This document shows, piece by piece, positions 5,447 through 44,912 of a stretch of 44,912 bases of DNA; the first letter of the stretch is position 1; each line of letters starts with the position of its first letter. The DNA comes from an uncultured Clostridia bacterium (GTDB lineage Bacteria; Bacillota; DTU014). Where the stretch lies: NCBI GenBank assembly GCA_900016865.1, contig FIZI01000014.1:1-44912 (forward strand), read 5' to 3'. The position numbers and the translations under genes were made by a program. Under the pieces are notes generated by a model. It saw only the letters and a program-made list of their open reading frames with translations. It searched no databases and had not been told where the DNA came from.

Positions 5447-5450
5447 AGAC

Positions 5451-6461: not shown

Positions 6462-6502
6462 TCGGTGATTCCCACTCCAATCATCGATACGGTCTGCTCG
6501 CC

Positions 6503-6549: not shown

Positions 6550-6687
6550 CAAAAAGATGTCGCAGGCGCATTCATGTGTAGCCATCAATCGTATAACCGC
6601 AGTAATACTGCTAGTTTATTGCACTCTTCGTGAATTCGTTTTCAGCATACATTGCATAAGCCCGTTAATACGTTTATACAGAAAGCA

Positions 6688-15790: not shown

Positions 15791-15806
15791 GAGGGTGTTG
15801 CAACTC

Positions 15807-21729: not shown

Positions 21730-21765
21730 AGCGTTCACAACACTACAAAGGAGAGGGCATGCAGC

Positions 21766-22638
21766 ATGATCAGGTCAAAAAGCACACGAATCGGTGATTG
21801 GATCATTGCCTTTGTCTGCTTCTTGTTGATTCTCATCTGTCTTCTGCCAATGCTCAACATCGTTGCGCGCTCTCTTAGTTCTTCGGAAGCAATAATCCGC
21901 AACGAAGTCCTGCTCTGGCCCAAAGGCCTGAACTTGACGTCCTATCGCTTTGTGCTCGGTGATTCGACATACACGTGGTCGCTTATTTGGACTGCAATAC
22001 TTACAGTCATCTGCACGTTCGTGTCCATGTTCATGACAATCATCTGCGCTTATCCGCTCACCTATGACAGACTCATCGGACGCCGCTTTTTCAACACATT
22101 GATCATATTGACCATGTATTTTAACGCAGGCACGATTCCTCACTATCTCTTGCTCAAAGATCTGGGGATGCTCGGCAAGCCGGTTGCACTCATAATCCCA
22201 AACTGCCTGAGTGTGTTCAACATGATCATCATGCGCAGCTACTTCTATGGAATCCCTGAGAGCCTGCGCGAGTCTGCTGAGATAGACGGTGCCGGGCCCA
22301 TCCGCATACTCGTTAGCATCTATCTTCCACTCTCAAAGCCTGTGATTGCGACTCTCTCACTCTTTTATGCTGTCGGGCGGTGGAACGGGTTTTCGGATGC
22401 GTTGATGTATATGGGGAATAATAGGAAGTACTACCCGATTCAGTTGCTCCTGTATAACATCATCAAGAGCATAACCAGCATTGATGTTGCTACGCAGGAA
22501 GGCTTCACGACTCCGGGGCTGAGTGACACGATCCAGGCAGCAACTGTAGTGTTTGCCACTGTGCCAATATTGCTTGTATATCCGTGGCTGCAGAAGTATT
22601 TCATAGCAGGTGCAACCTTAGGTGCCGTCAAGGAATAA
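21766..22638 (+). CDS. Sugar ABC importer permease, YtcP-like
   Basis: A 290-residue permease partner of the preceding gene, 36 nt downstream with an AAAGGAGAG site. RIGDWIIAFVCFLLILICLLPMLNIVARSLSS (in two parts) is the YtcP-type first helix with the Asn-x-x-Ala-x-Ser loop. The EAA motif is LRESAEIDGAGPIRILVSIYLP (about residues 166-187). The end, PWLQKYFIAGATLGAVKE, is the standard C-terminus of this subfamily (YF..G...GAVKG). It forms the heterodimeric channel with the LplB-like subunit for an oligosaccharide. Confidence 0.92.
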   Translation: MIRSKSTRIGDWIIAFVCFLLILICLLPMLNIVARSLSSSEAIIRNEVLLWPKGLNLTSYRFVLGDSTYTWSLIWTAILTVICTFVSMFMTIICAYPLTYDRLIGRRFFNTLIILTMYFNAGTIPHYLLLKDLGMLGKPVALIIPNCLSVFNMIIMRSYFYGIPESLRESAEIDGAGPIRILVSIYLPLSKPVIATLSLFYAVGRWNGFSDALMYMGNNRKYYPIQLLLYNIIKSITSIDVATQEGFTTPGLSDTIQAATVVFATVPILLVYPWLQKYFIAGATLGAVKE

Positions 22639-22696
22639 GTTGCGCCTTTAGGCACGGCGTGCCTCACATCAAACCAGATAATAAGGAGGAAAACGT

Positions 22697-24316
22697 ATGA
22701 ACACGACTCGTCTACGTCTGGTCGGTAGCCTCATCATCGTCACTCTACTGGCAGTCAGCTCGTTCGGCATCCTTTCGTCTGCGGCTGATCCGGAAATCGT
22801 CAATGGCAGATTTGTTGAGACCAGGTACATCACAGTCGAAGTGTACGACCGCAGCAACCCTGGAGGCTCTCCCCCGGAGGACAACTTCTACACGGACTTT
22901 ATCAAAGAGGGCATGCTGCGCGACCACAATGTCGTTGTCGAGTTCGTCCCGGTGCCTCGCTGGACTGAGGTAGAGGTGCTCAACAACCTGTTGGCTGCAG
23001 GAGACGCCCCCGACATCTGCGTCACCTACGACTACCCAACGATTCAGACATACGCCAATATGGGCGGAGTGCTCGATATGGCTCCTTACCTCGAGAAATA
23101 CAAAGACCTGATACCCGACCTGTGGGACTGGTTGGGAGAGCAAAACCTCTACTGGAATCAAGACCCCATTACAGGCACAGTGTGGGCTATCGAGGCCAGG
23201 CTCGCTCACAACACACGAATCAACACATTCGTCCGCGAGGACTGGCTGAATAAGCTCGGCATTCCCGAGCCGACCACGCTGGAGGAGTTCGAGCAGATGC
23301 TGTACGCCTTCAGAGACAATGCAGAGCTGTTGCTCGGCAAAGACGCTGACAAGATGATTCCGTACTCCACAAGCTTTGATGTGGGCTGGCGCAACAACTA
23401 CCTGCTGACCTCCTTTGTGCCCAACGACATCACTGACAAGGATATATACGTCTATGGTTTTGACGACAGGCACTTGCTGCTCCCCGGCTACAAGGAAGGT
23501 GTCAGGAAACTCAACGAGTGGTACAACGCGGGCCTTATCTGGAAGGACTTCCCGCTGTACGGCGCTGGCGACAGGACTGAGGACAACTTGATAAAAGCCG
23601 GCTATGTAGGCGCCTTCCAGCACAACTGGGACTACCCGTACCGCGATGGCGAAGAGGGCATTCACAACACTTTGCGCAGGATGGTTGGCGAAGACGCTGT
23701 GTTTATCGCAGTCGACCCGTTCCAGAACGACGCAGGCCTCTACAGGAAGTACCTCCCGGCTCCCATTGACAGGAAGGTATTCTTCCCGTCAACCAATGAC
23801 GAGCCTCTTGCCTCGTTGCTGTATCTCAACTGGATCACTAAGTTCGAGAACCGCAGATTCCTGCAGATCGGCCAAGAGGGCGTGACCCACGAGGTGCTCG
23901 AGGACGGCACAATAAAGACCATTGCCGCCACTGGTGATAAGATAATGAACTCACCCAACAACATCGACTACACCATTACTATCAATGGGCTCGAACTCGG
24001 CGATCCGGAGCTTACCAGCAGGTCTCTAGCCCTCGGATACGCCGGTGTTGACAAGAGGTTCATCGAGAAGGCATACATGCTGACCAACAGAGACGCGCGC
24101 TACGAGAAGAACGTCCAGGTAGGCGATATTGTGGCTGAGCAAGGCATGGGTCCTGCACTCAAGGAGAAGCGGGACACTCTGTTGGCTCAGGCCGTAGTTG
24201 CCAAACCTGAGGACTTCGATGCAGTGTGGGACAGAGGGTTCCAGGACTACCTGAACTCCGGCGGACAGGCGATAATAAACGAGCGTCGGGCGAAGTACGA
24301 GCAGTTTTACGAGTAA
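22697..24316 (+). CDS. Extracellular solute-binding protein of the LplA type, non-lipoprotein
   Basis: A 539-residue sugar-binding protein for the two upstream permeases. The signal peptide (residues 1 to about 30, SLIIVTLLAVSSFGILSSAA) ends with a signal peptidase I site and has no lipobox Cys, unusual for a monoderm Firmicute. WTEVEVLNNLLAAGDAPDICVTYDY is the start of the type-1 binding fold; REDWLNKLGIPEPTTLEEFEQML is a family hallmark (Arg-x-Asp-Trp-Leu-Asp/Asn-Lys-Leu-Gly). The Trp- and Tyr-rich regions fit an oligosaccharide ligand. The ATG has an AAGGAGG site. The gene ends at a strong palindromic terminator. Confidence 0.9.
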   Translation: MNTTRLRLVGSLIIVTLLAVSSFGILSSAADPEIVNGRFVETRYITVEVYDRSNPGGSPPEDNFYTDFIKEGMLRDHNVVVEFVPVPRWTEVEVLNNLLAAGDAPDICVTYDYPTIQTYANMGGVLDMAPYLEKYKDLIPDLWDWLGEQNLYWNQDPITGTVWAIEARLAHNTRINTFVREDWLNKLGIPEPTTLEEFEQMLYAFRDNAELLLGKDADKMIPYSTSFDVGWRNNYLLTSFVPNDITDKDIYVYGFDDRHLLLPGYKEGVRKLNEWYNAGLIWKDFPLYGAGDRTEDNLIKAGYVGAFQHNWDYPYRDGEEGIHNTLRRMVGEDAVFIAVDPFQNDAGLYRKYLPAPIDRKVFFPSTNDEPLASLLYLNWITKFENRRFLQIGQEGVTHEVLEDGTIKTIAATGDKIMNSPNNIDYTITINGLELGDPELTSRSLALGYAGVDKRFIEKAYMLTNRDARYEKNVQVGDIVAEQGMGPALKEKRDTLLAQAVVAKPEDFDAVWDRGFQDYLNSGGQAIINERRAKYEQFYE

Positions 24317-24394: not shown

Positions 24395-26446
24395 CTAGTA
24401 GTTTTCGGGCACTACAACTTCAACTTCGATCTCGAGTGTTGCCTCGTTTCCTGCGTAGTCCTTGACGCTGAACGTGACGGGATAGAATCCCGGATAAGAC
24501 ACGTCGAGTTGCGACACGTCTGTCTCCAGCCTGCTGTTCAGGTCAAAGGTTGAATCCTCAAGGACCGTTCCATCGCTCAAGACGATCTTGTCGTAAGCGT
24601 TGACGTAATCAGCCCAGTTGACTGAACTGATGTCTTGGTCGAGGTTAAACGTGATCTCATCGGTCGCCAACAACTCAATAACAGGCTCGACCTTCTCGTT
24701 CGGGTTGTAGAAAACAACCGTAAATTCGGGGGTAGTCGAGTTGCCGAAGCTGTCTGTCGCGTTCAGCACCAATTTTGACGTGTTGTTGGCATCGGTGTTG
24801 TCGATGTTGCCGTAATCAAACACAACGTCGTATATCGAGAACGCCTTGTCCTGGCCGATGTCATAGGCGTCGAAGTATGTGCCCCAATCGACGGCTGTCA
24901 AGTCCGCACCAACTTCAAAGACTAACTCCTTGCCCTCGAGTAGGCTGACAATCGGCGCCTGGTTGTCCACGATTGCGTCGCCTTCCAACGTCTTCCGCAG
25001 CCCCGAAATCGCCTGCTCGTACTTAGGCATCTCTTCTTCTATTCTCGCCCGTGCGTTGCTAGAAGGATTCGCGATCAGCTGTGCTATGGTGTCGTGCAGC
25101 GGAGCAATGACCCCGAGCATCTCACCTGAGTCAAACATGAAGTTGCTCATCCAGTCAGAGTACGCAGCCACCAAGGACTCACCGTACAGTTCGTCTGCGA
25201 CAGGGAAGTACTTGATCGCCGTGAGTCTGGCCTGTGAGTCGAGATAATCCTGCGTGTTGGCGTGACCCAGGTTCTTGAAGGTCTCAGCATTGTACATCGC
25301 CCATGCCTTGATAGCCAACTGCGCTGTTTCTGCATCGATGCCCTTCGGAATACCCAGGGTATCGCCGCCGAAGAACGGCACGTGATACTGGTATCGATCA
25401 GGATTGGCTTTTACCTTAGGACCAACCGGCCATGGGACCATCCCCATCTCTTCGCCTCTCTCGGTCAGGCTGGAAACAGCCGAATCCATCAGCCAGAAAG
25501 GCATGGACGTGAAGACCGTCTCACCCGAGGAGAAGTTGTTTCCGTTCCATGTCCAACCTGGCGTATAGCCGTCGTCGTAAGTTTCCGACCACATGATCTC
25601 TTCGCGCATCAGGTCTTGGAGGAACTCGATCGTCTCGATGGATGCTTCGCTGTTTACCCCAAGCGTGCCGTCGGGACGGACGACGAACTCACCGTTGGCA
25701 GCCAAGAGGTAGTTGTACGCCTGACGGTAGTCCTCTTCATAGGCATGAATGACCCGGCCACGGGTTCCGCCGATTCTTCCCTGATCGTAGTAGTAGGCTT
25801 TGACTTTTGACAGGTAATCCTTGAAGGTCGGCCAATCCCAACGTCCCTCTTGCCACAGCTGCGCTGGCAGGATGATGTTTCCATTCTCATCAGCGTAGCC
25901 GTCCTCCAGGGTGGTGCACTCTTTCAGGTAGTTGATATTGTATACCAGCGGCCAAACGGGGAAGCCAGCCATCGGATACAAGGCAAATCCGAGCACCTTC
26001 CCATACAAGTTCATTGGCCCAACCATCCAGAATTCCTCATCACCAAAGGCGTCGAGATACGGTGTCAGGTCCTGCAGGACGTTCTGGTTTAGGACAGTGC
26101 CTTGGGAGCCTCCCCACATTCCGACAATCTCACCAACAGGGTCTCCTGCCAGCACAGTCTGTAGGATCTGCTGCTGCAGGTCCAGAGAATACTGGACGAA
26201 CTCCAGCTCTACTCCGAGCTTCTCTTTGACTGTTTCGAGGGCCTTCAGTCTTGCTTCCCTCAGAGCAGTCGGCATTGTGTCAGGGTGCTCGCCTGTTGCA
26301 GGATCGATGTATGTCGGGTCATCTCCTGCAATCCACCAAAGCGCAACACGGATCTTCCTGAGTCCTTGAGCTTCCGCCAGTGCAACATTCCAGAAGCTCA
26401 GAAACAAGGAAAGAACGAGAAAAGCTACTAACAACCTCTTGCGCAT
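24395..26446 (-). CDS. Extracellular solute-binding protein with two C-terminal Ig-like domains
   Basis: A 683-residue secreted protein. A signal peptide (MRKRLLVAFLVLSLFLSFWN then VALAEA, no lipobox) is followed by a type-1 sugar-binding fold (about 30-490) with FVQYSLDLQQQILQTVLAGDP, IVGMWGGSQG and PVWPLVYNINYLKE. Residues about 497-582 and 587-680 are two beta-sandwich repeats, each opening with P-I/V-I/V-x-L-L and closing with a D-x-x-G-N turn (LNATDSFGNSTTPEFTV; VKDYAGNEATLEIEV), like DUF5011/HYR-type Ig domains. Normal binding proteins end near 450-500 residues. The repeats could extend the protein from a membrane or bind polysaccharide. It is the last gene of the nine-gene operon, 129 nt after a permease, with its own strong AAGGAGG site. 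Confidence 0.88.
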   Translation of the reverse strand: MRKRLLVAFLVLSLFLSFWNVALAEAQGLRKIRVALWWIAGDDPTYIDPATGEHPDTMPTALREARLKALETVKEKLGVELEFVQYSLDLQQQILQTVLAGDPVGEIVGMWGGSQGTVLNQNVLQDLTPYLDAFGDEEFWMVGPMNLYGKVLGFALYPMAGFPVWPLVYNINYLKECTTLEDGYADENGNIILPAQLWQEGRWDWPTFKDYLSKVKAYYYDQGRIGGTRGRVIHAYEEDYRQAYNYLLAANGEFVVRPDGTLGVNSEASIETIEFLQDLMREEIMWSETYDDGYTPGWTWNGNNFSSGETVFTSMPFWLMDSAVSSLTERGEEMGMVPWPVGPKVKANPDRYQYHVPFFGGDTLGIPKGIDAETAQLAIKAWAMYNAETFKNLGHANTQDYLDSQARLTAIKYFPVADELYGESLVAAYSDWMSNFMFDSGEMLGVIAPLHDTIAQLIANPSSNARARIEEEMPKYEQAISGLRKTLEGDAIVDNQAPIVSLLEGKELVFEVGADLTAVDWGTYFDAYDIGQDKAFSIYDVVFDYGNIDNTDANNTSKLVLNATDSFGNSTTPEFTVVFYNPNEKVEPVIELLATDEITFNLDQDISSVNWADYVNAYDKIVLSDGTVLEDSTFDLNSRLETDVSQLDVSYPGFYPVTFSVKDYAGNEATLEIEVEVVVPENY

Positions 26447-26575
26447 TAACTCTTTACCTCCTTGATTAGTTTCAGTTGCTTCGCTGTGTCCCTAATCACT
26501 GGAAGTCAAAGAACCAACCATCCCCCCTCTGCATTCGGTGCTAGTCAAGACGCGGATATGGATACGACTGCCAAC

Positions 26576-27613
26576 CTATCCGACAATGCCGGAACGCTCA
26601 AAGGTTTCGACAAACCGTCGCTGAACGACGAAGTACAAAATCAACAGAGGGATCAAGTAAATGATCAAGGCTGCCTGCTTTATTGCATCAAACGTAAACG
26701 TGTTGAAGGTCAGAATATCAAACCTGTTCCAAGACAGGCTCTTCACAAAGTCAAACTGAGTCTCTTGGAACGTGCGATCGAGCATTATACTCAAGTACGG
26801 GCCGTCCGGATGGAAGTAGTTGACGTAGTAGTTGTCCCCATAATTCCAGACAAACGCAAAGATCAAAACTGTCATGATAGCCGGAACTGCATTGGGAAGC
26901 ATGACTCTAAAGAAAGTGCCATAAAACCCACATCCGTCTATTAGAGCCGCCTCCTCCAATTCAGTCGGCATGCCGTAAAAGAACTGCCTAAAGATGAACA
27001 CAAACAGGCTTTGCTTTAGGCCAAACCCAAAGGCAGCAAGCAAGTACAAGGAAATCGGCTTGTTGATCAGATCAACGGACCTGCCGTAAATCAGTTTCAT
27101 GATGCCGAACACGTCAAAATCCTTAAACCGCAAATACTGAGAAATCAGCGTTGCCTGAGGCGGAATGACAAATGTCAGGATGACTAATGCAAAGACGAGT
27201 TGCCGACCCTTGAAATCCACTCGGGCAAGTGAATAACCCGCCATCGCACTCACTGCTGTTTGAATGGCAGCGATCGAGAGGGCGTAGAGCAGAGACTTGA
27301 CCATTACGAGGTTGTCGGCATTGAACAAGAGGTGTGCAGCTACTCGGAAAGACTGCACCGAAAAACGTCGCGGTATCCATATGACATCCGGTGTGCCTAC
27401 ATCCTCCAAGTTGTTGAACACCAAGGGCAATAACTTCAAGAACGGATAGAGGATCACAAACGACAATCCAAAAACCAACACAAACAGGACGATCTTGCTG
27501 ACAATGCTAAAGACTCGTTGCTGCAAGATATACAGGCGCAGGTTTTTGTAGGACAGACTCTCTGTCTTTGGCCTTATGTTGTACTTGTACGGGCTAGAAT
27601 CAAGATCAAACAT
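26576..27613 (-). CDS. Carbohydrate ABC importer permease, MalG-like
   Basis: A 345-residue permease. After a hydrophilic N-terminal tail of about 35 residues, six helices follow, the first being IVLFVLVFGLSFVILYPFLK. The EAA motif is ELEEAALIDGCGFYGTFFRVML (about residues 222-243). An extended periplasmic loop containing YYVNYFHPDGPYL and FDFVKSLSWNRFD replaces the short loop usual before the last helix, a feature of permeases found beside DUF5696 genes. The ATG at 27613 overlaps the preceding permease by 8 nt and has a GGGTGGTG site. Its partner is the gene at 27606-28505. Confidence 0.88.
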   Translation of the reverse strand: MFDLDSSPYKYNIRPKTESLSYKNLRLYILQQRVFSIVSKIVLFVLVFGLSFVILYPFLKLLPLVFNNLEDVGTPDVIWIPRRFSVQSFRVAAHLLFNADNLVMVKSLLYALSIAAIQTAVSAMAGYSLARVDFKGRQLVFALVILTFVIPPQATLISQYLRFKDFDVFGIMKLIYGRSVDLINKPISLYLLAAFGFGLKQSLFVFIFRQFFYGMPTELEEAALIDGCGFYGTFFRVMLPNAVPAIMTVLIFAFVWNYGDNYYVNYFHPDGPYLSIMLDRTFQETQFDFVKSLSWNRFDILTFNTFTFDAIKQAALIIYLIPLLILYFVVQRRFVETFERSGIVG

Positions 27614-28505
27614 TCTTATACACCACCCGAGAGAATAGGAGTGAGACTATGCCGACGATCAGCAATACGAAAACGAGATAGACGACTGAGAGCGCAGAGC
27701 CTATTCCGATCTTGTTCTCAAGGATCGTAAAGGTATAGATCTCGTTCGTCAATGACGAGGCTAGGAACATATCGACAAGTGTGTATATGGTGACAAACAT
27801 CATCACAGGCGAAACCATGGGCAACGTGATCTTCCAGAAGGTTTCGTACCTATTGGCTCCTTCGATGTCCGCCACTTCGTACAAGGACTTGTCGATCGAT
27901 TGCAGGCCAGCCAGGTATGTGAGAATCTGGACGCCGGACTTCGCCACTAGCTCGAAAACTCTGCCAACAGAATCCGACAGAAATCCGACGAAGCCAGTGG
28001 GCAACCCCGAGCTTAACAGCACTCGTTCGACCAGATCCGCCTGCAAGAAAGCACCGCTTTGGGCCTGCGCATCCATATAAGTCGCTCCAGTGGACATCAG
28101 CATCAGGTTCAACACGACGTCCAGGCCCAGAACGATCGGGAGAAAGAAGATCACTCGAACAACATCCCGCCCCTTGAACTGCATGTTCAGCAGGATTGCT
28201 GCAAACAGACTAAAGATGACAATGAGCGGGGTGTTGACAACAATTCTTGTAAACTCCTCGTAGAACATCCGATAGATCTGGGTCTGATTGTCACTCGCCA
28301 ATTCGACCCTAAACAGGTCAACATAGTTCTTGACACCTATAAACTCCAAAGTACGTCCGCCTTGGTCAGCAACCCCGACGATGTTGAAGCTAAAGATGAA
28401 CGTATTGACAATGGGGATCAAGAAAAAGAGGAAAAAGCCGATTAGCCACGGCAAAACGAATATGAAACCGTTCAACCGCCGAGACTGCTTGTGCGTCAAT
28501 GCCAT
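27606..28505 (-). CDS. Carbohydrate ABC importer permease, MalF-like
   Basis: A 299-residue permease starting at ATG 28505, which overlaps the DUF5696 stop (TGATG). The AAAGGAG site lies eight nt upstream. Helix one is GFIFVLPWLIGFFLFFLIPIVN. The EAA motif is LYEVADIEGANRYETFWKITLP (about residues 211-232), with Val for the second Ala and Glu-Gly in place of the usual Asp-Gly, still within family range. A long loop between helices (TGATYMDAQAQSGAFLQADL) is typical of the set found with DUF5696 proteins. It pairs with the MalG-like gene to form a channel, probably served by the Ig-domain binding protein downstream. Confidence 0.88.
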   Translation of the reverse strand: MALTHKQSRRLNGFIFVLPWLIGFFLFFLIPIVNTFIFSFNIVGVADQGGRTLEFIGVKNYVDLFRVELASDNQTQIYRMFYEEFTRIVVNTPLIVIFSLFAAILLNMQFKGRDVVRVIFFLPIVLGLDVVLNLMLMSTGATYMDAQAQSGAFLQADLVERVLLSSGLPTGFVGFLSDSVGRVFELVAKSGVQILTYLAGLQSIDKSLYEVADIEGANRYETFWKITLPMVSPVMMFVTIYTLVDMFLASSLTNEIYTFTILENKIGIGSALSVVYLVFVLLIVGIVSLLFSRVVYKNV

Positions 28506-31177
28506 CACTGTGCTCCTTTCAACACGATCTCATAGTCCAAGGCCTCGAGCTCGTATCCGTCAACTTCCACATCGTAGTAGTTGTAATTCACCAGTACTTT
28601 GACCCCGTTCTTGTAGGTCGTTTGAAATACATTCGGCGCCAGCATCTTGTGGTGAACTATTTCATTAGTTCCAATTCTCTGATAGGCTGCAGATATTTCG
28701 CTATATATCGACCTGATCTCGCTCTCCCAAGTGTCTAGTCCTGTTGAATACAGGTACTTGAACTCCGTGTCCTTCAGTAGCGAAGGATCCTTGTAGCTTA
28801 GAGTGAACTTGGGATGTCCCCCTAGTTCCAAAGCTTGCAGGATGTAGTATCTGGGCGGTTTGTCAGTATTGAGGTTGATGTCCTCTGTCGAATACTCAAC
28901 AATGCCGTTGAACACAAGCTGCTTGAAAGGTATGCTAGCCGCAAACATTATGTAGTCGCTGCTTGTGCGATAGACGTTTTGAACGTAGTCTGCGTAGCAG
29001 ATGTTCTTGATAAAGGGATCGTTCAACATCAGCCTGTAATCAGACAATCGTTCTAGGTTTTTTCTTTCTATGACTTGAGCCTCAATTGGCGTCACGACGT
29101 TCTGTTTGCGATAGTCGACCATGTATGTGCTGCCCAAGTCACCTATGCTTAGGGCGTCGAACACCTTGTTTTGCTCAATGAACCGCTCAACCACACTTGA
29201 CAGGTAAGTCGGGCTCAAAATCTGATAGTAAGACGCGTTGCGTTCAAACCGCTTGTTTGAGGGGTTGAACAGCGTCAAACGAAGCGGCTTGCTGTCTAGG
29301 GCGTACATACCCATCTTCGGTTTGAAGCCGTTCTTGTTTGTGTAGGTCTTCAACAGATTGATGTGAACGAAGAACTCATCGTGCTGTTCACTGACGTATC
29401 GCTTCAGCTCCTCCAGCTCTGCGACACTGCCATTTGCCCTTTCGAACTCGATCCTGCTGAGGAGCGATTGGTTGATTCCACGATTAACAGCCCCGCGGTA
29501 ATTCACCACTTTCTTGATGCCTTCCAGCTCTCTCAACAACTCGATCGCTTCTCGATAAGTCGTCATCGAAACGTAAGACTGATACGGTATCCCAAGGAAG
29601 TGCTTCTTGACGTTCACGGTCCCGATCAGATCGATAAACACCTTGGGTTCATAGCTTCCGAACTTGGCTGCTAGGTCATAGCGGTCAATCAAGTATTCCC
29701 TGAAGGTCTTGACCAAATCATAGTACTCCAACCTATCGGCCACCAGCAATTTGTAACGCACCACTGCGTTGTAGTCGTATCTTACAGACTTCGTCAAATG
29801 AGATGTCGTGTCTGTTGCGTAGTAGCCAAAGAGCTTCACGTCAGAGGTTTGAACGATATCAAAAGCTGCGTTTACTTGATTGGCAGACCCTCTGCTGGAC
29901 CTGTTTGCCGAGCTGGCTCTGATGTGCGCCAATTCAGCGCCGTTCTCGATAATCGCTAGAAATCCTTTCCAGTAATCCTCCTGATTGACATACATGCCAA
30001 ACACGGGCATGTCTATGTCTTGTTGATAGTCTTTCGGGTAGTAGTACTCGTCATAAGCATCGTTGCTGTAGACAGGCTTGTTGTAGGCTGTCTGGTTTTG
30101 GTTGTAAGCGTTTAGTGAAATCAGTGCCCCGGAGCCGTCCGGCACAAAGATAAACCCGGGCTCCTCCCTTGGGACTACGCCCGCGTGCACATTTCCAAAA
30201 TAGGGGTATACCGAAACAGACTGAATATGGTCATAGTCATTATTGCTCCTCACATAAGCAGTCGGCACTTTGACTACTACGTCGTCGCCGTCCAGCATTG
30301 TCTCAATCGTGACTGTAAAGACAGTTCTCAGTGTGAAGTTCGTTGACTCGCCAAACTGCAGGTTGTCGTAGATCAGTTCCTCTGCATCGTAGCCAATAAG
30401 GTTCAGTACTTTGATCATTAGGCGAATTGAAGAGGTCGGCGGAAGGGACCCAACAGAATAGACATAAAACCCGCCTTCCAAATTCTTGCTATAGAAGGCA
30501 TCCCAAAACATCTTGAAATTGTTGTACTCGGTTTGTGTAATCAACCCTTCCTCAAGCGCCTTGTCGAGTCTGGAACCAATGACCTCCTCGTACCGGTCGA
30601 AATAGATCCGCCTGGGCAAGTGCTCAAAAACACGGATCGCTTTGTCCTGCAGTTCATAGGTGATCTGGACCCCATTTTCCAACCTGTTGATTGTGAACTG
30701 CATGTCTTTGATGCTGTAGTTGTAGGCGTTCATCGTACCACGAACGCCGTTGTCGTTGACGTAGTCTATTTCGAACGGCGAAACAAACTTGCCATATGAC
30801 TCGCTAATAGTCCCATCCGAACCGGCAACAGCAGCCCCCGTGGCCAGGGTCTCCCATATAGCCCCCGTTTTCTTGTCGACAATGCGGATGTTTGTGGTCT
30901 TGGTATCTACATACATCGCCTTTGTCTCATTCTCGCAAACAAGAACTTCGCCGATGTTCTTGTCTATGGGCTCGATAGGTGTTTCCAGGTAGCTCCTTTC
31001 GGCCTCAACCACTTGGACGCTCAATCCAGACGCGCCCAACCGCATCAATCCAAAGGCTGCAATGACAAGGACAAGGACAAGAAGCACTGCCTTGTACCTG
31101 TTTTCAGGCACCCAAGCTAGCGCCCTTTGAAGCATGTTAGATGCCGATTTCATGGCTGAACGCGACCTGTCTCTCAT
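28505..31177 (-). CDS. DUF5696 membrane-anchored protein, possible glycoside hydrolase
   Basis: An 890-residue protein with one N-terminal membrane helix (AVLLVLVLVIAAFGLMRL, about 30-47) and a large extracytoplasmic part. I recognise it as DUF5696 from its length and context. The N-terminal half (about 80-430) is a beta-rich sandwich (PFEIDYVNDNGVRG, VFEHLPRRIYFDRYEEVIGS). The middle (about 500-760) reads like a TIM barrel, with strand ends such as KVFIDLIGTV, FFVHINLLKTY and FDALSIGDLGSTYMVDYR. The C-terminus (NVFQTTYKNGVKVLVNYN ... YELEALDYEIV) resembles the terminal beta-domain of GH36/GH101-like glycosidases. Hydrolase function is inference; Asp in IGDLGS is a candidate catalytic residue. 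The ATG at 31177 overlaps the Yip1 stop by 4 nt and has a GAAGGA site. Confidence 0.75.
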   Translation of the reverse strand: MRDRSRSAMKSASNMLQRALAWVPENRYKAVLLVLVLVIAAFGLMRLGASGLSVQVVEAERSYLETPIEPIDKNIGEVLVCENETKAMYVDTKTTNIRIVDKKTGAIWETLATGAAVAGSDGTISESYGKFVSPFEIDYVNDNGVRGTMNAYNYSIKDMQFTINRLENGVQITYELQDKAIRVFEHLPRRIYFDRYEEVIGSRLDKALEEGLITQTEYNNFKMFWDAFYSKNLEGGFYVYSVGSLPPTSSIRLMIKVLNLIGYDAEELIYDNLQFGESTNFTLRTVFTVTIETMLDGDDVVVKVPTAYVRSNNDYDHIQSVSVYPYFGNVHAGVVPREEPGFIFVPDGSGALISLNAYNQNQTAYNKPVYSNDAYDEYYYPKDYQQDIDMPVFGMYVNQEDYWKGFLAIIENGAELAHIRASSANRSSRGSANQVNAAFDIVQTSDVKLFGYYATDTTSHLTKSVRYDYNAVVRYKLLVADRLEYYDLVKTFREYLIDRYDLAAKFGSYEPKVFIDLIGTVNVKKHFLGIPYQSYVSMTTYREAIELLRELEGIKKVVNYRGAVNRGINQSLLSRIEFERANGSVAELEELKRYVSEQHDEFFVHINLLKTYTNKNGFKPKMGMYALDSKPLRLTLFNPSNKRFERNASYYQILSPTYLSSVVERFIEQNKVFDALSIGDLGSTYMVDYRKQNVVTPIEAQVIERKNLERLSDYRLMLNDPFIKNICYADYVQNVYRTSSDYIMFAASIPFKQLVFNGIVEYSTEDINLNTDKPPRYYILQALELGGHPKFTLSYKDPSLLKDTEFKYLYSTGLDTWESEIRSIYSEISAAYQRIGTNEIVHHKMLAPNVFQTTYKNGVKVLVNYNYYDVEVDGYELEALDYEIVLKGAQ

Positions 31178-31815
31178 GACGACCATCCTTCGATTCTCAC
31201 AATCGCTTCTGTTATGAACAGTTGGACAAAAGCGAGGACTTCCTGGATCAGCGAATATGTCAGGAGACAAAGAAACAATATGATCGAAACAGCAAGGACC
31301 GTGCAGAGCAGCGTGGCGATGTTTTTCAGAACACCGTATTCGTGAACGACAATCAACCCAGAGAATACCAAGAAAGCAAACCACGCTGAGCCTGCGAAAA
31401 CGATCAAACGGTAAATCGGCACTTCTTCCATGGTGATGAACTGGCTAAAGATTACGCCGATCACTTGGCTGACGATATAGGGAAAAAGAGCATATCCGAC
31501 GACGATGTAGATCTCCCGCATGGTTCCCTTACCGTCAAACAAGGTTGTAGTTGAATAATTGCCAACAACGAATATCAGGTACGGAAACAAGCTGTAAAAC
31601 ATGATCAGAAGGCTGTTCATGTTCTTGATGTTGAACGTGTTTATGACAAAGCCGTTATACTGAGTAGAAACAACTGCCAATACGCTGTTGATCAAGAAAA
31701 ACAAGGTGGCAATCAGCGCATCGCCCTTATTACGAAACTTGATTTCGTAATAGCCGTCAAATGGATTGACGATCACGTGTTTTGTGTAGCTTAGCTTCTC
31801 CAGGAACTGTTTCAT
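31174..31815 (-). CDS. Yip1-family membrane protein
   Basis: A 213-residue protein with five membrane helices after an amphipathic N-terminus (VIVNPFDGYYEIKFRNKGD, the Asn-Pro-x-x-x-Tyr-x-Ile signature of bacterial Yip1 proteins). Helices run from ALIATLFFLINSVLAVVS to the C-terminal SIILFLCLLTYSLIQEVLAF. The Gly-Lys-Gly-Thr in TTTLFDGKGTMREIY is conserved in the family. No enzyme function is known. It overlaps both the NHL gene (ATGA at 31812-31815) and the DUF5696 gene by 4 nt, so the three proteins are probably made in equal amounts and act together. Confidence 0.82.
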   Translation of the reverse strand: MKQFLEKLSYTKHVIVNPFDGYYEIKFRNKGDALIATLFFLINSVLAVVSTQYNGFVINTFNIKNMNSLLIMFYSLFPYLIFVVGNYSTTTLFDGKGTMREIYIVVGYALFPYIVSQVIGVIFSQFITMEEVPIYRLIVFAGSAWFAFLVFSGLIVVHEYGVLKNIATLLCTVLAVSIILFLCLLTYSLIQEVLAFVQLFITEAIVRIEGWSS

Positions 31816-33314
31816 TGTACTCCTGCCCTCTTGTGGTATTTGTACTCGGCAAAAACAACGGCTCCAAACAGTATCAGCAGCGGCAGTATGAACAGGCCGA
31901 AGTTCTCGCTCAATCGTTCAGAGCGGTACTTCTTGTAAGCCATCGAGTAGTACGTGCGGTTATTCCCGAGTCTGAAATACTCCAGAGCTTCTTCGTACCT
32001 ATCTTGCATGTAGAGCATTTTCCCATAACCAACATAGGCGATGTCGTAGTTCGCGTTGTACTTCAGAGCCTGCAGCCACTTCTCTCCCGCGCTATCCCAA
32101 TTGCCAACGTAGTACTCCTTTGTTGCATCAATGACCAACTGACCGAATTCTGTTGGGGTATAGATCGTAATGGTTCCCTTTTTCTTGTCAGTAACTACTA
32201 TGTCGTCGTTCAGCCAGGACACGTCGCCTGGGCTGATGAACTCCCCCCTCGCCAGACCTTGGTTGCCGATAACAAACAGCAACTCGCCGTCGAAGTTGTA
32301 GACGAATACGCGGCCCTTTCCTGAATCCAAGATCGCGTACATTCCGTGGTCGTTTACGGTCACACTGATGATTTCTGATTCGTCTCCGGTTAGGTAGTCA
32401 GGCACATCGCCAATGGGCGGCAAGTAGCCCATTTTGCGGATGATATTGTCACCACTCGGGTTGAACCGAGCGACCTTGTCAATCGACCGCGGATCTGAAT
32501 TAGTTGTATAGATAAAGCCGTTTTCATCTATGTCGACGCTGTTGAATGGCGGTGCAAAAGTCAACGCCATTTTCTCCAGTTGTTCTTCGGATGCCAAGCT
32601 TTTCCAGAAATACTCTATAGGACTGAACCGAATCCGGTTGGTTCCGAAGTAGTGAGAAAACGAACCGTCAGCGTTCAAGACGACTATGCCCTCGCTTCCA
32701 CCCTGCACAACAGCGTAAATACGATAGGCATTGTCGACTACTAGCTTCGACGGGATAAACTGAGTTCGGCCTACGAAATTGTCCGGCTTCTTGATTATGT
32801 TCTTTGCGTAATAGAATGGGTTACCACGAGAATCGATTGTTTCAGAGAAGACGACGATACGCGCTTCTCCGGTCTTTGGATCTCTGTACCCGGAGTCTGC
32901 TATGTACAAATCACCGTTCTCGGCTTCAAACGCTCCTTCGGGCAGCGTCAACCGCATTTGGTTTCCGCCCTCAGTCATAATGCGGTTTTCCTCGTTCTTG
33001 AGCAAAGTGATTCGCGAGACGAAGTTGAAGTCGTAATCCGTGATTATGACTTGGCTGCCGATTCGGTCGACGATATAAATCCGTTCTTTGCCTACATGAA
33101 TGTCGGCCAGCTCCCCGAAGTTATACACACCCGGAATTGTGCCAACGTTTATCTCCTTCTTTAAGCGATACGCAGGCGCGCTAGGCACTGTCTCTTGCCA
33201 GAGATTGTAGTTGTAAGAACGAGGCAGCTCTGCGTTTGCACCTGCTTCAGCAGCTATGAAGATGAGGCCAATCATGAGGCACAGGGCGATTGAGAAACCT
33301 CGTTGCACCGACAT
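31812..33314 (-). CDS. Secreted NHL/beta-propeller protein with TPR segment and C-terminal membrane anchor
   Basis: A 500-residue protein with a signal peptide (ALCLMIGLIFIAAEAGANA, cleavage near 28). Repeated NHL-like blades fill residues about 50-390: ELADIHVGKERIYIVDRIGS, AFEAENGDLYIADSGY, SVDIDENGFIYTTNSDP, SVTVNDHGMYAILDSGKGRV, SPGDVSWLNDDIVVTDKKKG. A TPR-like pair follows (YVGNWDSAGEKWLQALKYN; MLYMQDRYEEALEYFRLGN). A final helix (LFILPLLILFGAVVFAEY) anchors the C-terminus in the membrane with a basic tail inside. The propeller would face outward and may organise the two ABC importers and DUF5696 protein. It starts at ATG 33314, nine nt after a permease. Confidence 0.82.
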   Translation of the reverse strand: MSVQRGFSIALCLMIGLIFIAAEAGANAELPRSYNYNLWQETVPSAPAYRLKKEINVGTIPGVYNFGELADIHVGKERIYIVDRIGSQVIITDYDFNFVSRITLLKNEENRIMTEGGNQMRLTLPEGAFEAENGDLYIADSGYRDPKTGEARIVVFSETIDSRGNPFYYAKNIIKKPDNFVGRTQFIPSKLVVDNAYRIYAVVQGGSEGIVVLNADGSFSHYFGTNRIRFSPIEYFWKSLASEEQLEKMALTFAPPFNSVDIDENGFIYTTNSDPRSIDKVARFNPSGDNIIRKMGYLPPIGDVPDYLTGDESEIISVTVNDHGMYAILDSGKGRVFVYNFDGELLFVIGNQGLARGEFISPGDVSWLNDDIVVTDKKKGTITIYTPTEFGQLVIDATKEYYVGNWDSAGEKWLQALKYNANYDIAYVGYGKMLYMQDRYEEALEYFRLGNNRTYYSMAYKKYRSERLSENFGLFILPLLILFGAVVFAEYKYHKRAGVQ

Positions 33315-33323
33315 CTCCCCCCC

Positions 33324-34199
33324 TTACTCCTTGATGCCGGAAGTCGCCATGGTCTCTATGACATTGCTTTGAGAAATGACAAAGACAGTCAGAGGAACAA
33401 TCAGCATGAATAGAGCAACTGCTGCGGCTACACCTGTCCGCGCGACCCCGCCACCGACGATCTGCGAGAGGGCATAACTCAATGGTTTGAGCTTCTCACT
33501 GTAGATGTAGGTACCGCCCGTCGCGCCCCAGAGTCCCTGGAACTGGAGGATCACCAGTGTCAACCAAGCCGGCCTCGCCAACGGCATCATGATCGACCAA
33601 TATATTCTGAAATCACCCGCACCGTCTATTGTCGCTGATTCGATCAAGTCATTGGGGACCTGTCCCATGAAGTTCTGCATCAAGTACAGGCCCAATGTCG
33701 TCCCAAATGTCGGAAACAGTATTGCTCCATAGCTATCAAGCAATCCCAACCTGGATATGATGAGATAACTGGGTATTCCGGTTACTGCCGTACTAAACAT
33801 GAGGGAGTAGACAATCATCCTCGACATAAGTCTCGATCCGGGGAAGCGGAACTTAGCCAGAGGATAAGCTGCCAACGAACTGATAAACACGCTTCCCAGT
33901 GTACCGAGAAAAGTAATGAGTAGCGTGTTAAACACATAGCGGGAAAGCGGAACCCACGAATTGCTCATCAGGCTGACCAAGTCTCTGAAGTTGTTTAGGG
34001 TAGGGTTCCTGACAAACAGCCGCGGCGGGAAAAGCAGTATTTCATTCAGCGGCTTAAAGGCGTTGTTGACAACAAACACCATGGGCCAAGCGCTAAACGA
34101 CCCGAGCAAGGCCAAAAACGAGAACAATATGATGTCCCCATAAATGGAACGGTTTAGCCGTGACCCAAATCTGATTTGCAGCTTTCTCCCTTTGGCCAT
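33324..34199 (-). CDS. Carbohydrate ABC importer permease, MalG-like (second system)
   Basis: A 291-residue permease. The first helix is DIILFSFLALLGSFSAWPMVFVV, followed by NNAFKPLNEILLFPPRLFVRNPT, a typical MalG/YtcP linker. The EAA motif is LIESATIDGAGDFRIYWSIMMP (about residues 184-205). The C-terminus ETMATSGIKE matches the GxxKG/E end of the subfamily. Its ATG overlaps the stop of the preceding permease by 1 nt (TAATG). With 34199-35149 it forms the channel served by the large fusion binding protein. Confidence 0.9.
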   Translation of the reverse strand: MAKGRKLQIRFGSRLNRSIYGDIILFSFLALLGSFSAWPMVFVVNNAFKPLNEILLFPPRLFVRNPTLNNFRDLVSLMSNSWVPLSRYVFNTLLITFLGTLGSVFISSLAAYPLAKFRFPGSRLMSRMIVYSLMFSTAVTGIPSYLIISRLGLLDSYGAILFPTFGTTLGLYLMQNFMGQVPNDLIESATIDGAGDFRIYWSIMMPLARPAWLTLVILQFQGLWGATGGTYIYSEKLKPLSYALSQIVGGGVARTGVAAAVALFMLIVPLTVFVISQSNVIETMATSGIKE

Positions 34200-35149
34200 T
34201 ACTGTCCTACCTTTCGAATTAATTGCTGAACGACAAGGTTCGTAAAGATCATAGCCAAGAACAGCAGTGTCGCAGTTGCAGATGCATATCCCATCTCAAA
34301 CCGCACAGTACCGTAGTCGATCATGTGAGTCAGCACCGTTCTTCCCGCATAAGACACAGACGGGAACCCGGCCAACTGCATCGATACCTCGCCGACAGAA
34401 AACGAGGAAGTGATCTGCATAACCGCACCAAACAACAACTGGGGCCTCATCGACGGCAAGGTGATATACCACAATTCCTGCCATCGGTTTTTGATTCCAT
34501 CAATGGCTCCAGCCTCGTACAGAGTGCGGTCAACGTTTTGCAGGCCTGCTATAAAGGCCAAGAAACTAACGCCCAGGCTCAGCCACAACTGTACGAGGAT
34601 CACAATCCAGATGATGTATTTCGGGTCTTGCAACCACAGGATAGGTTCTTGAATGAATCCCCAATCAATCAGCTTCGAGTTTGCATACCCATACAAGTCT
34701 GAAGAGAAGATCAATTTCCAAATCAAATACGCATTTCCAGAAATAGACGGTGCATAAAACACAACCGTAAGGAACACACGCAGCGGCCTGCTCAGTTCAT
34801 TGATCAGCCAAGCCAGCATAAAACACATGAGATAGCTCAAGGGCCCTGTTATGAAAGCAATCAAGAGTGTGTTTCTTATGGCTATCGCGAATACCTCATC
34901 GTTCAGCAAGAGCTTGACGTAGTTTCGATATCCCACAAAATTGGGCGTCTGAAGCATATTGAAGTCCGTAAAACTCAAGATGATCGAAGAGACAACAGGC
35001 AAGAACACGAACAGAAAGAACGAGATCATGAACGGGGCAACCATGACATACTTCGTTCTGTTGCGCTTGATCTCTTTCCACAAATCCTCGAGCCTTTCTC
35101 TAAAAGGCGCTCTCAATGATCTGTTTGCCTGCTGCATGCTGCTTGCCAT
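34199..35149 (-). CDS. Carbohydrate ABC importer permease, MalF-like (second system)
   Basis: A 316-residue permease with helix one at YVMVAPFMISFFLFVFLPVV and the usual SFTDFNMLQTPNFVGYRNY after it. The EAA motif is LYEAGAIDGIKNRWQELWYITL (about residues 215-236), in which the usual Gly-Ala after Asp-Gly is Ile-Lys, a mild divergence. GGEVSMQLAGFPSVSYAG-like sequence before the last helix is expected for oligosaccharide systems. It begins 2 nt after the binding-protein stop. Confidence 0.9.
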   Translation of the reverse strand: MASSMQQANRSLRAPFRERLEDLWKEIKRNRTKYVMVAPFMISFFLFVFLPVVSSIILSFTDFNMLQTPNFVGYRNYVKLLLNDEVFAIAIRNTLLIAFITGPLSYLMCFMLAWLINELSRPLRVFLTVVFYAPSISGNAYLIWKLIFSSDLYGYANSKLIDWGFIQEPILWLQDPKYIIWIVILVQLWLSLGVSFLAFIAGLQNVDRTLYEAGAIDGIKNRWQELWYITLPSMRPQLLFGAVMQITSSFSVGEVSMQLAGFPSVSYAGRTVLTHMIDYGTVRFEMGYASATATLLFLAMIFTNLVVQQLIRKVGQ

Positions 35150-35151
35150 GT

Positions 35152-38052
35152 TCAGTTGCCCCTCCCCGGACGCGTGGATAACCCAAACTCGAGGCGCTTA
35201 ATCGTAAGTTCCTCATTGATCACTTTGACGTTTTCATACAGGGCTTCACGAGGGTTTTGCCCTTCGTTCAAAACAGCCCGCAATGCGTAGTCAACGTGAC
35301 GAGCAGTGATATAGCCTCCAGGCACTTCGGGAATCGTACAAAGGTTGCTGAACTGCTCACTCAGCTGATCGTAGCTCTTGGAGTCCCAGGGCAGCCTGGC
35401 AACCGCCTCGAGATTCGCAGTGTTGTAACGTGCGGCAGCCCCCATGATGGCTTCCAGTGCCCGGCCGTAACTGACTTGCGTGTCTACACTTGTCCACCAT
35501 TTCATAAACTCCCAACTGGCCTCTTTGTTCTTGGCGTCTTTCAGCATCATGCAGTTGCTCACCGCAGATACAGACGTGTTGTTGATCGATCCATCTGGTT
35601 GCCTGACCCCCGGCAAGACACCAAAACCCCAAAGGCCGCTGATTTCTGGAGCAAACACTGACAACGTATTGTGTATCGTATAATCAGCAATGCCGATTGG
35701 CATCTCGCCCGTCCTAAAGCGGTTTGGGAAATCGGCTTCTACTGGCAATTTGTAGGCAGTAAAGAAGTCAGTCCACTTCTCAAATGCCTCCATAGCCTCC
35801 TTTGAGCTGAGGCCGCTCTCAATTCCCAGGTCATTGCCGTCGCCAAGATACACCTTCCCTCCCATCTGGTAGAGAAGCGTGGCATACATCTGCAGGGTAT
35901 TGGGCACATAAAACTCGTAGTTGTTCATTTCCAGGTAGGGGATCATTTCGTATACGTCTTCCCACGTCTCGGGAACACCCAATCCCAATTCTGTCAGAAC
36001 GTCTTTTCTGTAAAACAACATGAAGAAGCTCTGCGTTTCCGGCAGGCCGTATACTCCGCCTTGGTATTTCACAGTGTCAAAAGCACTGGGGGAAAATCGA
36101 CTTGCGACTGCTTCGAAGTCGTCAAACTGCGACAAATCATAGGCAGCATCCCGCATCGCGAAGTTGACGGTGGTATCGCCGGCCAATCCCAATGCAACGT
36201 CAGGGCCTTCACCTGCCAAAGTCGCTGGCAGTACAACGCCTTGGGGAACAAGTTTTAAGTTCACATTAATCCCCGTCACAGGTGTGAACGTATTGTCAAT
36301 CAGGTTGCGCAGTATCTGAACTTGATCGCGGCCGCTTTGAATCCACACTTCTATAGTGTCCGAGTCGTCAACCGAGTCCGCTTGAAAGATGTTGTAGTCA
36401 ACAAAGAACGTAGAGAAAAACCGCACAGCAGAGAAACGCAATCTCTCCAGTGTACCCGGCCTTACATCTGGCAGATCGTTCTCAGGTGAAGACAGGATAA
36501 AGTAGTCGATCTCAAGGGGCTGTTCACTCGCCTGCAAGATCCAAGTACTCATTGCAGAGATATTGCCCTGCATCATTCGAATCTGACGGATCACTTTCCT
36601 CGGATTTCTGACGAACTCGCCCAACTGGACAGCCATTTGGTTGAGAACAGCCGTCTGGTCGCTTCTGTCCCCGGCAATCTGCTCAATCTCTTTGACCAGG
36701 CGCTCCAGCCGCTGATGCTCTTTTTCAAACGTAGACAGCATGTGAGGCAGTTTGCGTTCGAGCTGATAATCTATGTACTTCTCCGGAGTCAGTCCGGTGA
36801 TCTGTGTTATCTGTCTGTAAAGGTCATTTAGTATTGTTACGCTTTCCTTGACCTCTTGGATGATCGGCCCCATCCGTCCGAGTGTTGATTGCAGCTCGAT
36901 TGTATTTATGCCCTTCTTGAGGTGGATCAAATAGGGACCGGCTTCATTACCCACCGTGTACATCTCAAAGCCAGTGTTGTACTTGAACTCCAAAGCATAG
37001 GCTTCTTGGAAGGGCACCTCGCCGTTGACTCGCAGCTGCCTTGAAGAAAACACTCCGCGCTTGGTGTTCTGAAGCACGCTGAAATTCAGTTGGTACAGCC
37101 CTTCTTCTTCGACGTATACATCCCAGCTGATCCAATCGCCTATGACCCGCCAGTTCCAGCCTCCTATCGTGTTCAGGCGTATGTTGTAAGGGTGGCTGGG
37201 CTCCAAGCGGGAGCTGCTGAAGTTGGACACCGCGTGCAGGGTCGGAGAAGACTTCTGTATCGCTACTGTGTGATTGCCTTCTCCGTCGGTTCGTTCTGCT
37301 TGGAACTTGATATTCGGACCAGCATAGACATCGTATTTCTGCAGCTTATCAGCAATGTATTCCTCATATGTGGGGATCTTTGGCGCTTGTTTGAACTCGA
37401 GCTTCCGGATCTGAAGAGGTTCACGGACCGAAACAAGAGTCAGCTTATGAGTGCCTTCCGACAGGTAAAACTCAAACGGGCCGGGAATGTACTTCTGTGA
37501 GTCGCTGACAAAACCTGTCTGCCACTCAAACGCCTCGACCTGATTGGGGCGTATTTCGTTGTCGCGCTTCTTGATGATTGGCCCTTCGTCGACCCATATG
37601 CGTGAGAACAGGATCTGGTGAGCTCCTTCAAAAGGAATCTCGCCGTCCAAACGTATTTCCCGCTGGACTGAAGAGCTCTTCCCCTCAGGCGTCAAGTACT
37701 CAATTTCTAGACTGTAAAGGCCCTCCTTCTCGACAGAGAAGGCCCAGGTAATCGCGCCACGTTCGCCGGTAACAACGGTGTCGCCCTCTACAAGCACATG
37801 CATATCGCCCGAGATCTCAAAGTCCAACAGGTCAATCCGAATGACTTCATCAGGTCGATCAGCATCTCTGTGTTGGTCCAGGTAGAATCGATACGGCAGG
37901 AGGCCGACAGCAGCCATGTCGATTGACTCGCGCGCAGACGCAGCGGCTGTCAGAGACACCACAAACAAGAAGACAGTTATACTCAGCAATAACCGCAGGA
38001 TAAGGCCTTTCTTTGTCAGTTCTCTATTTATCGCACCTGAGCTGCTACGCAA
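35152..38052 (-). CDS. Large extracellular solute-binding protein fused to carbohydrate-binding-like domains
   Basis: A 966-residue protein. The TTG at 38052 (AAGGGAG upstream) gives a clean signal peptide (GLILRLLLSITVFLFVVSLT, AxA site, no lipobox); the longer frame from 38088 has no ribosome binding site. Two beta-sandwich modules follow (about 50-225 and 270-408), each with a pattern 'eeGLYxLxxxY/F ... R-xL-R/V-x-G-E-V/I-P-F' typical of CBM-like or glycosidase accessory domains. A charged helical linker (about 410-530) then leads to a full type-1 sugar-binding domain (about 555-945: VAPxxLAGEGPDVALG-like, FYRKDVLTELGLGVPETWEDV, EASWEFMKWWTSVDTQ). It is the first gene of the nine-gene operon and probably captures oligosaccharides through the extra modules. 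Confidence 0.88.
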   Translation of the reverse strand: MRSSSGAINRELTKKGLILRLLLSITVFLFVVSLTAAASARESIDMAAVGLLPYRFYLDQHRDADRPDEVIRIDLLDFEISGDMHVLVEGDTVVTGERGAITWAFSVEKEGLYSLEIEYLTPEGKSSSVQREIRLDGEIPFEGAHQILFSRIWVDEGPIIKKRDNEIRPNQVEAFEWQTGFVSDSQKYIPGPFEFYLSEGTHKLTLVSVREPLQIRKLEFKQAPKIPTYEEYIADKLQKYDVYAGPNIKFQAERTDGEGNHTVAIQKSSPTLHAVSNFSSSRLEPSHPYNIRLNTIGGWNWRVIGDWISWDVYVEEEGLYQLNFSVLQNTKRGVFSSRQLRVNGEVPFQEAYALEFKYNTGFEMYTVGNEAGPYLIHLKKGINTIELQSTLGRMGPIIQEVKESVTILNDLYRQITQITGLTPEKYIDYQLERKLPHMLSTFEKEHQRLERLVKEIEQIAGDRSDQTAVLNQMAVQLGEFVRNPRKVIRQIRMMQGNISAMSTWILQASEQPLEIDYFILSSPENDLPDVRPGTLERLRFSAVRFFSTFFVDYNIFQADSVDDSDTIEVWIQSGRDQVQILRNLIDNTFTPVTGINVNLKLVPQGVVLPATLAGEGPDVALGLAGDTTVNFAMRDAAYDLSQFDDFEAVASRFSPSAFDTVKYQGGVYGLPETQSFFMLFYRKDVLTELGLGVPETWEDVYEMIPYLEMNNYEFYVPNTLQMYATLLYQMGGKVYLGDGNDLGIESGLSSKEAMEAFEKWTDFFTAYKLPVEADFPNRFRTGEMPIGIADYTIHNTLSVFAPEISGLWGFGVLPGVRQPDGSINNTSVSAVSNCMMLKDAKNKEASWEFMKWWTSVDTQVSYGRALEAIMGAAARYNTANLEAVARLPWDSKSYDQLSEQFSNLCTIPEVPGGYITARHVDYALRAVLNEGQNPREALYENVKVINEELTIKRLEFGLSTRPGRGN

Positions 38053-38270: not shown

Positions 38271-38286
38271 TTGGTAACGTTATCAA
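38271..38286. promoter_or_regulatory. LacI-type operator, downstream copy
   Basis: TTGGTAACGTTATCAA differs at one position from the perfect palindrome at 38487-38504. It lies about 90 bp downstream of the predicted transcription start, where a bound LacI-family protein would block elongation or form a loop with the other site. Confidence 0.7.
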
Positions 38287-38486: not shown

Positions 38487-38504
38487 ATTGATAACGTTAT
38501 CAAT
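38487..38504. promoter_or_regulatory. LacI-type operator, perfect 18-bp palindrome
   Basis: ATTGATAACGTTATCAAT is perfectly symmetrical with the central CG typical of LacI/GalR-family operators. It lies about 80 bp upstream of the -35 box and 217 bp centre to centre from the second copy at 38271-38286. Confidence 0.8.
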
Positions 38505-44659: not shown

Positions 44660-44912
44660 GAACGCACTCACCTTTTCATGTTGATTTGGTGTGAATCTAT
44701 CCCTCGAGCAATGTCTAGATGTGTCAATTTGATATCTTAGAAACAAAAACCCCTTTTCCTGCTTCTCTATCCTCTCTATGGTTCTGCGCTTACGCAGAGC
44801 AGATTAGCGTTGCTAATGTTTCTGGGGCGATGTGTGGTCTCCGAAGCGATTGTAGAGCCGACTCGGAGCCATGGACGGCGGCGAATCGGAGCATCTGCAG
44901 CGAGTGGTGTCG
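44660..44912 (-). promoter_or_regulatory. Control region upstream of the glycosidase operon
   Basis: No gene is recognised in these 253 bp. A minus-strand TTGACA lies at about 44718-44713, but its -10 is poor. Two palindromes stand side by side: TCTGCG/CGCAGA (44783-44798) and ATTAGC/GCTAAT with a three-base centre (44803-44817). The second resembles a LacI-family half-site pair but differs from the ATTGATAACGTTATCAAT operators farther down. Confidence 0.4.

Follow-up and report, generated by a model that had tools for sequence, protein, structure and literature searches.

The window analysed here comprises 44,912 nucleotides from the 2.19-Mb genome of an uncultured Clostridia bacterium, and its minus strand carries nine genes between positions 24395 and 38052, transcribed in the order SBP-L, permA, permB, NHL-TPR, Yip1, DUF5696, permC, permD and SBP-2. 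SBP-L (35152–38052) starts at a TTG codon at 38052, which is preceded by AAGGGAG, and encodes 966 amino acids with a signal or anchor sequence, two N-terminal CBM35-like modules identified by profile matches and a C-terminal SBP_bac_1 domain (Pfam, E 4e-23). The permease genes permA (34199–35149) and permB (33324–34199) follow, and then the gene for a 500 aa NHL propeller-TPR protein (31812–33314), which gave a Pfam TPR match and a weak propeller match and which has, by hydropathy, an N-terminal signal/TM segment and a C-terminal TM segment at residues 468–493. The remaining genes encode a 213 aa polytopic membrane protein of the Yip1 family (PF04893; 31174–31815), the 890 aa DUF5696 protein (PF18952; 28505–31177), a second pair of permeases, permC (27606–28508) and permD (26576–27613), and SBP-2 (24395–26446), a 683 aa solute-binding protein with a C-terminal Ig-like domain (sub-threshold Pfam match; homologues).

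The distances between consecutive genes are +2 nt (SBP-L/permA), −1 (permA/permB), +9 (permB/NHL-TPR), −4 (NHL-TPR/Yip1), −4 (Yip1/DUF5696), −4 (DUF5696/permC), −8 (permC/permD) and +129 nt (permD/SBP-2); seven of the eight junctions therefore fall within +9 to −8 nt and SBP-2 alone is set apart. The original prediction had placed all nine genes in one tight operon with 4-nt overlaps at NHL-TPR/Yip1 and Yip1/DUF5696, and each gene was found at the expected place and strand and both overlaps were measured, the third overlap of this length being that between DUF5696 and permC. The ATG start of DUF5696 overlaps the stop codon of Yip1 (31177).

The consensus promoter that had been proposed was also recovered, as a sigma-70 type TTGACA-17-TATAAT sequence on the minus strand (38408–38380) matching at 12/12 positions. 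It lies between two putative operators, a perfect palindrome of LacI-family type, TTGATAACGTTATCAA (38488–38503), and a palindromic site on the opposite side of the promoter, TTGATAACGTTACCAA (38271–38286), and these were the sole sites with one mismatch or fewer in the whole genome. The operator motif was not found by motif search in the loci of relatives, and no regulator gene adjoins the cassette in the stretch seen, the contig ending at position 44912. LacI genes adjoin the cassettes of relatives, and LacI or GntR regulators adjoin other copies within the same genome. Elsewhere in the window a single run of minus-strand genes (989–6575) encodes a LacI regulator, an FGGY kinase, a zinc alcohol dehydrogenase, a class II FBP-type aldolase and a PfkB kinase, a possible galactitol/tagatose-type or sugar-alcohol pathway.

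Conservation of the cassette was assessed in 80 DUF5696 loci obtained by scanning named public genomes with the DUF5696 profile. The gene order from SBP-L to permD was kept in all 80 as far as the contigs reach; SBP-L was upstream of permA in every fetched full cassette with enough sequence, and permC was directly 3′ of DUF5696 wherever the sequence allows. NHL-TPR and Yip1 form a single fused gene in 15 of these loci. The position of SBP-2 was more variable, its homologue being directly upstream of SBP-L in 68/73 loci and downstream of permD in the window and in loci L019, L083 and L089, which include the nearest relative of the window. Because these 80 loci had been picked by DUF5696 similarity, a second sample was also tested, in which 300 genomes were spread evenly over the phylum. 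DUF5696 exceeded the cut-off in 25 of the 300, and strong full-length matches to NHL-TPR-Yip1 were found in the identical 25, which represent 11 family codes; the chance of two such identical sets is 1/C(300,25), or ∼1e-36, if relatedness is ignored. One further genome showed an isolated NHL fragment where a contig stops, and nothing else of the set. The cassette was kept, as contigs allow, in 20/20 loci from this sample, with its two halves swapped in one of them (L135). Lack of conserved linkage between NHL-TPR, Yip1 and DUF5696 had been named in advance as a result that would count against the proposed system, and in both samples the linkage proved near-absolute.

The genome from which the window derives contains 11 matches to DUF5696 and 10 to Yip1. 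Each Yip1 adjoins a DUF5696 and all 10 fall in DUF5696 cassettes, while the eleventh DUF5696 is truncated where its contig stops. NHL-TPR and Yip1 are fused in eight of the 10 and split in the window and on one other contig (C5). A related genome (G001) gave 22 DUF5696 matches, some of them fragments. Several copies in the window's genome (on contigs C29, C33, C44 and others) consist of NHL-Yip1, DUF5696, permC and permD and have no SBP-L, permA or permB directly upstream. The first importer is therefore dispensable in several copies, and the core of the system is NHL-TPR-Yip1, DUF5696, permC and permD with a solute-binding protein, the nine-gene form being the commonest. A 1030 aa HEAT-repeat protein is encoded downstream of another of these cassettes (L011:15771–18863).

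On the DUF5696 tree, the window copy belongs to a 15-row clade containing Paenibacillus, Cohnella, Clostridia, Lachnospiraceae and one Treponema, apart from the other copies of the same genome that were placed on the tree; a recent duplication from those copies was ruled out on this basis. The Treponema locus (L029; Spirochaetota) is a complete cassette, and it probably arose by horizontal transfer since it is nested inside a Bacillota clade. A strictly Gram-positive distribution is thus contradicted by this one genome.

The four permeases are CUT1-type and match BPD_transp_1 (Pfam, E 5e-13 to 1e-6), two to each importer, and inspection identified the EAA loop, which is the docking site for the ATPase, in permA (EAGAIDG), permC (EVADIEG) and permD (EAALIDG) of the window and, by family consensus, in permB (EAAKIDG). 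Cognate solute-binding proteins are present, SBP-L being recognised by Pfam and SBP-2 by its homologues. There is no ATPase gene within the nine-gene cassette. The genome contains 53 matches to BPD permeases against one ATPase of the MalK/MsmX type, typed by its OB_MalK domain, which is 367 aa long and is encoded by a stand-alone gene outside the cassette. In Bacillus it is established that many sugar importers draw on a single MsmX (PMC7658222, PMC5730181), and by analogy an operon without an ATPase is compatible with the MsmX-sharing CUT1 subgroup. Function as an importer is supported by the intact EAA loops, the shared ATPase and the adjacent sugar regulators and glycosidases. Two modular binding proteins had been expected, and CBM35-like modules were found in SBP-L and a weak C-terminal Ig-like domain in SBP-2. 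The N-terminal modules of SBP-L match CBM35/CBM6 structures by profile (best match 5x7g, E 1e-4; 2w47 and 2vzp weaker), and the coiled-coil matches of the SBP-L profile arise from a helical linker. A further CUT1-type importer, with two permeases, a 539 aa solute-binding protein and no ATPase, is encoded on the plus strand at 20779–24316, convergent with the cassette.

The DUF5696 protein matches PF18952 over model positions 2–612 of 612 (441 bits against a cut-off of 25.6, E 7e-132). A single N-terminal TM helix at residues 26–49 follows a basic stretch; by the positive-inside rule such a stretch stays on the cytoplasmic side of the helix, which would place the body of the protein outside the cell. 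An AlphaFold2 model made from a 54-sequence alignment (mean pLDDT 88) has the beta-sandwich and TIM barrel of the GH129/GH101 superfamily, and with this model Foldseek retrieved ZgGH129/DagB (E 2e-29), NagBb (6.5e-24), GH101 (1e-16) and GH36 (3e-13). DUF5696 is accordingly assigned to the GH129/GH101 superfamily by its modelled fold. Foldseek searches against viral proteins and PHROGs gave no meaningful matches. PF11308 (GH129) had no matches in 150 genomes of the phylum, and GH101 relatives were used to map the active site because no close GH129 sequence was found. Two GH101-like proteins (L140 and L143) are encoded on a contig of G001 (C2) that also bears a DUF5696 cassette.

The original prediction included surface cleavage of the glycan, and in one explanation of the system DUF5696 would be a working enzyme of the GH129/GH101 superfamily, a membrane-anchored glycosidase that cuts captured glycans on the cell surface and supplies both importers with the products. 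The fold match to active GH129 enzymes, with a weak sequence profile match (E 1.8e-8), is consistent with this. The candidate nucleophile, D680 in the motif SxRDLG, was located from its position and from a weak hhalign alignment with a GH101-like protein, which had a probability of 31% and was offset by one residue; it is kept in 63/81 DUF5696 sequences, including the window copy and most Paenibacillus copies. However, D680 ranks 107 in conservation among positions, far below structural residues, and the DUF5696 tree requires six or more changes at this position in intact cassettes, the residue being Y, H or C in paralogues of the window's genome. The position of the GH101 acid/base Glu (VTNEF, strand 5) is occupied by GGNAY or similar, mostly with Ala or Gly, and no conserved acid was found there among the DUF5696 sequences, including those of the window clade. 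The most conserved acids are instead D347, in the signature VPDGSGAL, and E784 on a helix; the PDGSG Asp347 is kept in 78/81 sequences. The acid/base residue varies among known GH129-like enzymes, and ZgGH129 is without that of NagBb and depends on a distant residue, Asp202, which the partner subunit contributes through its N-terminal domain (PMC5698469). By analogy Asp347 could act in the same manner, and an unusual catalysis through this residue is possible. Surface cleavage as originally worded is unsupported, since the family has the glycosidase fold but does not conserve the canonical pair of catalytic residues. A role in binding and presenting glycan is at least as likely as cleavage, and an active enzyme is regarded as a serious contender that nevertheless falls well short of being probable. 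A shorter type of DUF5696 (about 730–815 aa), mostly without the strand-4 Asp, was observed in full cassettes from several families (L122, L126, L128–L131 and L134–L136).

Searched against the PDB, the profile of the NHL-TPR family found NHL propellers and TPRs with E values as low as 6e-59, and Yip1 matches PF04893 with 57 bits against a cut-off of 28.6 (E 2.5e-15) and is polytopic by hydropathy. Hydropathy of NHL-TPR-Yip1 indicated a signal or TM segment at the N terminus, a further TM segment following the TPRs and, in the Yip1 part, a multi-pass bundle. The structure model of the fused protein was poor (pLDDT 58), and the topology of the putative scaffold therefore rests on hydropathy and homology. 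On the DUF5696 tree a minimum of six switches between the fused and split states is needed, four of them forced by starred branches, and this recurrence speaks for joint action and co-adaptation of the two halves. An assembly frameshift was ruled out as the origin of the split in the window, since a 66%-identical relative (L019) is split with an identical layout.

Three glycosidase genes lie upstream of the cassette on the same strand, encoding a GH2 protein related to beta-galactosidases and beta-glucuronidases (38555–40630), a GH27 protein (40692–41999) and a GH35 protein of the beta-galactosidase family (42032–44746). The GH27 protein aligns over its full length to the beta-L-arabinopyranosidase Abp (E 5e-194 to 4nx0), including DIQWYE at the specificity-determining position, and it is a predicted beta-L-arabinopyranosidase very close to Abp. 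GH27 beta-L-arabinopyranosidases have been linked to the use of arabinogalactan (PMC4598101). GH30_2 or GH35 was found beside 6/14 orthologous cassettes of the window clade and 0/66 others (p ∼1e-5, relatedness ignored); the PDB matches of the GH30 neighbour are mostly xylanases, with a weak match to an endo-beta-1,6-galactanase. The resemblance of GH27 to Abp, the GH35 and GH2 genes and the GH30 or GH35 neighbours of orthologous cassettes suggest that the substrate of the window cassette is probably type II arabinogalactan or a related arabinose-decorated galactan, and the same neighbours back the earlier guess of a galactose-containing glycan. Other copies in the genome are flanked by an apiosidase-like protein, a GH106 rhamnosidase and a GH5-like protein. 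Since the copies adjoin different enzymes and sugar regulators, their neighbourhoods suggest that a single transport core has been re-specialised across copies. The window also encodes HydE/HydG-like radical SAM proteins and HydF (13359–17072, plus strand); these are genes for [FeFe]-hydrogenase maturation and make a strictly anaerobic life probable.

The reading that we favour, with a probability of about 0.5, is that the cassette serves carbohydrate uptake through two CUT1-type importers, a shared MsmX-type ATPase and three glycan-engaging proteins, DUF5696 having mainly a presenting role. SBP-L, permA and permB would form one importer and SBP-2, permC and permD the other, both driven by one MsmX-type ATPase encoded elsewhere. 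SBP-L would catch chains through its CBM35-like modules, and DUF5696, anchored by its one N-terminal helix, would grip and present the glycan outside the cell. NHL-TPR-Yip1 would serve as a membrane scaffold, with the propeller and TPRs outside and the Yip1 bundle in the membrane, keeping DUF5696 beside permC and permD. Most of the trimming would be carried out by separate glycosidases; in many copies DUF5696 may chiefly bind and present glycan, and some copies may retain residual or unusual catalysis. The gene set and its linkage, the fold of DUF5696, the loss of its catalytic positions, the EAA loops, the single MsmX-type ATPase and the unique operator pair are what the analysis shows; complex formation, the substrate, the pairing of binding proteins with permeases and the division of labour are what we infer. 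A more far-reaching version is put forward tentatively and is, in our judgement, rather doubtful: that the two importers, the NHL-TPR-Yip1 scaffold and a catalytically degenerate DUF5696 docking subunit that feeds the permeases constitute a fixed membrane machine, a general glycan-acquisition complex of monoderms re-specialised by duplication.

The genes might instead share transcription and inheritance because they serve one class of substrate, while their products act independently, without a complex. An operon by itself gives co-expression, and the importer and binding-protein genes are shifted within some cassettes, as in L135 and in the position of SBP-2. Against this, the recurrent NHL-Yip1 fusion, the 4-nt overlaps, the gene order across families and the absolute co-occurrence are unusually strong, and independent action is considered unlikely. 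Less likely again is that NHL-TPR-Yip1 and DUF5696 serve sensing or assembly, monitoring the loading state of the permC/permD importer or its placement in the membrane, and have no direct contact with substrate, as strict linkage to these permeases even without SBP-L, permA and permB and the generic interaction modules of propeller and TPRs could suggest, but the large GH-fold body and the many substrate-specific neighbours point to glycan contact and no regulator domain was found in the proteins by Pfam.

The favoured uptake system resembles the MsmX-sharing CUT1 importers of Bacillus (YtcQP-YteP, YesOPQ, AraNPQ and GanSPQ) in its combination of a solute-binding protein with two EAA-loop BPD_transp_1 permeases, its lack of an operon ATPase, the one MsmX-type ATPase per genome and the LacI-type regulators and glycosidases nearby. 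It differs from them in having two importers per operon, a solute-binding protein with CBM35-like modules and three additional invariant proteins, NHL-TPR, Yip1 and DUF5696. DUF5696 itself shares with GH129/GH101 proteins (NagBb, ZgGH129 DagB and SpGH101) a TIM barrel with a beta-sandwich on its N-terminal side and a beta domain on its C-terminal side (Foldseek E 2e-29 to 1e-15) and a partly recognisable GW..GG..H..P loop, but it is membrane-anchored, is only ∼8–14% identical, constitutes its own Pfam family and has a variable candidate nucleophile and a non-conserved acid/base position.

The cassette had been likened to a Gram-positive counterpart of a PUL. As in the PULs of Bacteroidota, glycan capture, processing and import are encoded together, in many copies per genome, each with its own glycosidases. 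However, there is no TonB-dependent transporter or SusD, and import is by ABC transporters across one membrane; all nine proteins belong to families other than SusC/SusD or are relatives of solute-binding proteins (Pfam, homologues). Because the SusC/SusD pair is absent, the term PUL is used by analogy only. The locus is partly like gpPULs in that an ABC transporter and glycosidases (GH2, GH27 and GH35) occur together, with candidate operators here and regulator genes at the loci of relatives. It is unlike them in its fixed nine-gene transport core, which is reused with different enzymes, and we know of no described gpPUL with such extra proteins. No published description of this gene set, or of a function for DUF5696, was found in open-licence PMC papers.

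The cassette is a real, conserved and, as far as open-licence PMC papers show, undescribed variant of carbohydrate ABC uptake, near-invariant in gene order across the genomes tested and present in many copies per genome in some Bacillota. If its products form a physical complex, this would be a Gram-positive equivalent of the SusCD logic and would account for the joint occurrence of two permease pairs. Genes now annotated as ‘hypothetical’, ‘YIP1’ or ‘DUF5696’ would then become predictable glycan loci, with substrates that could be read from their neighbours.
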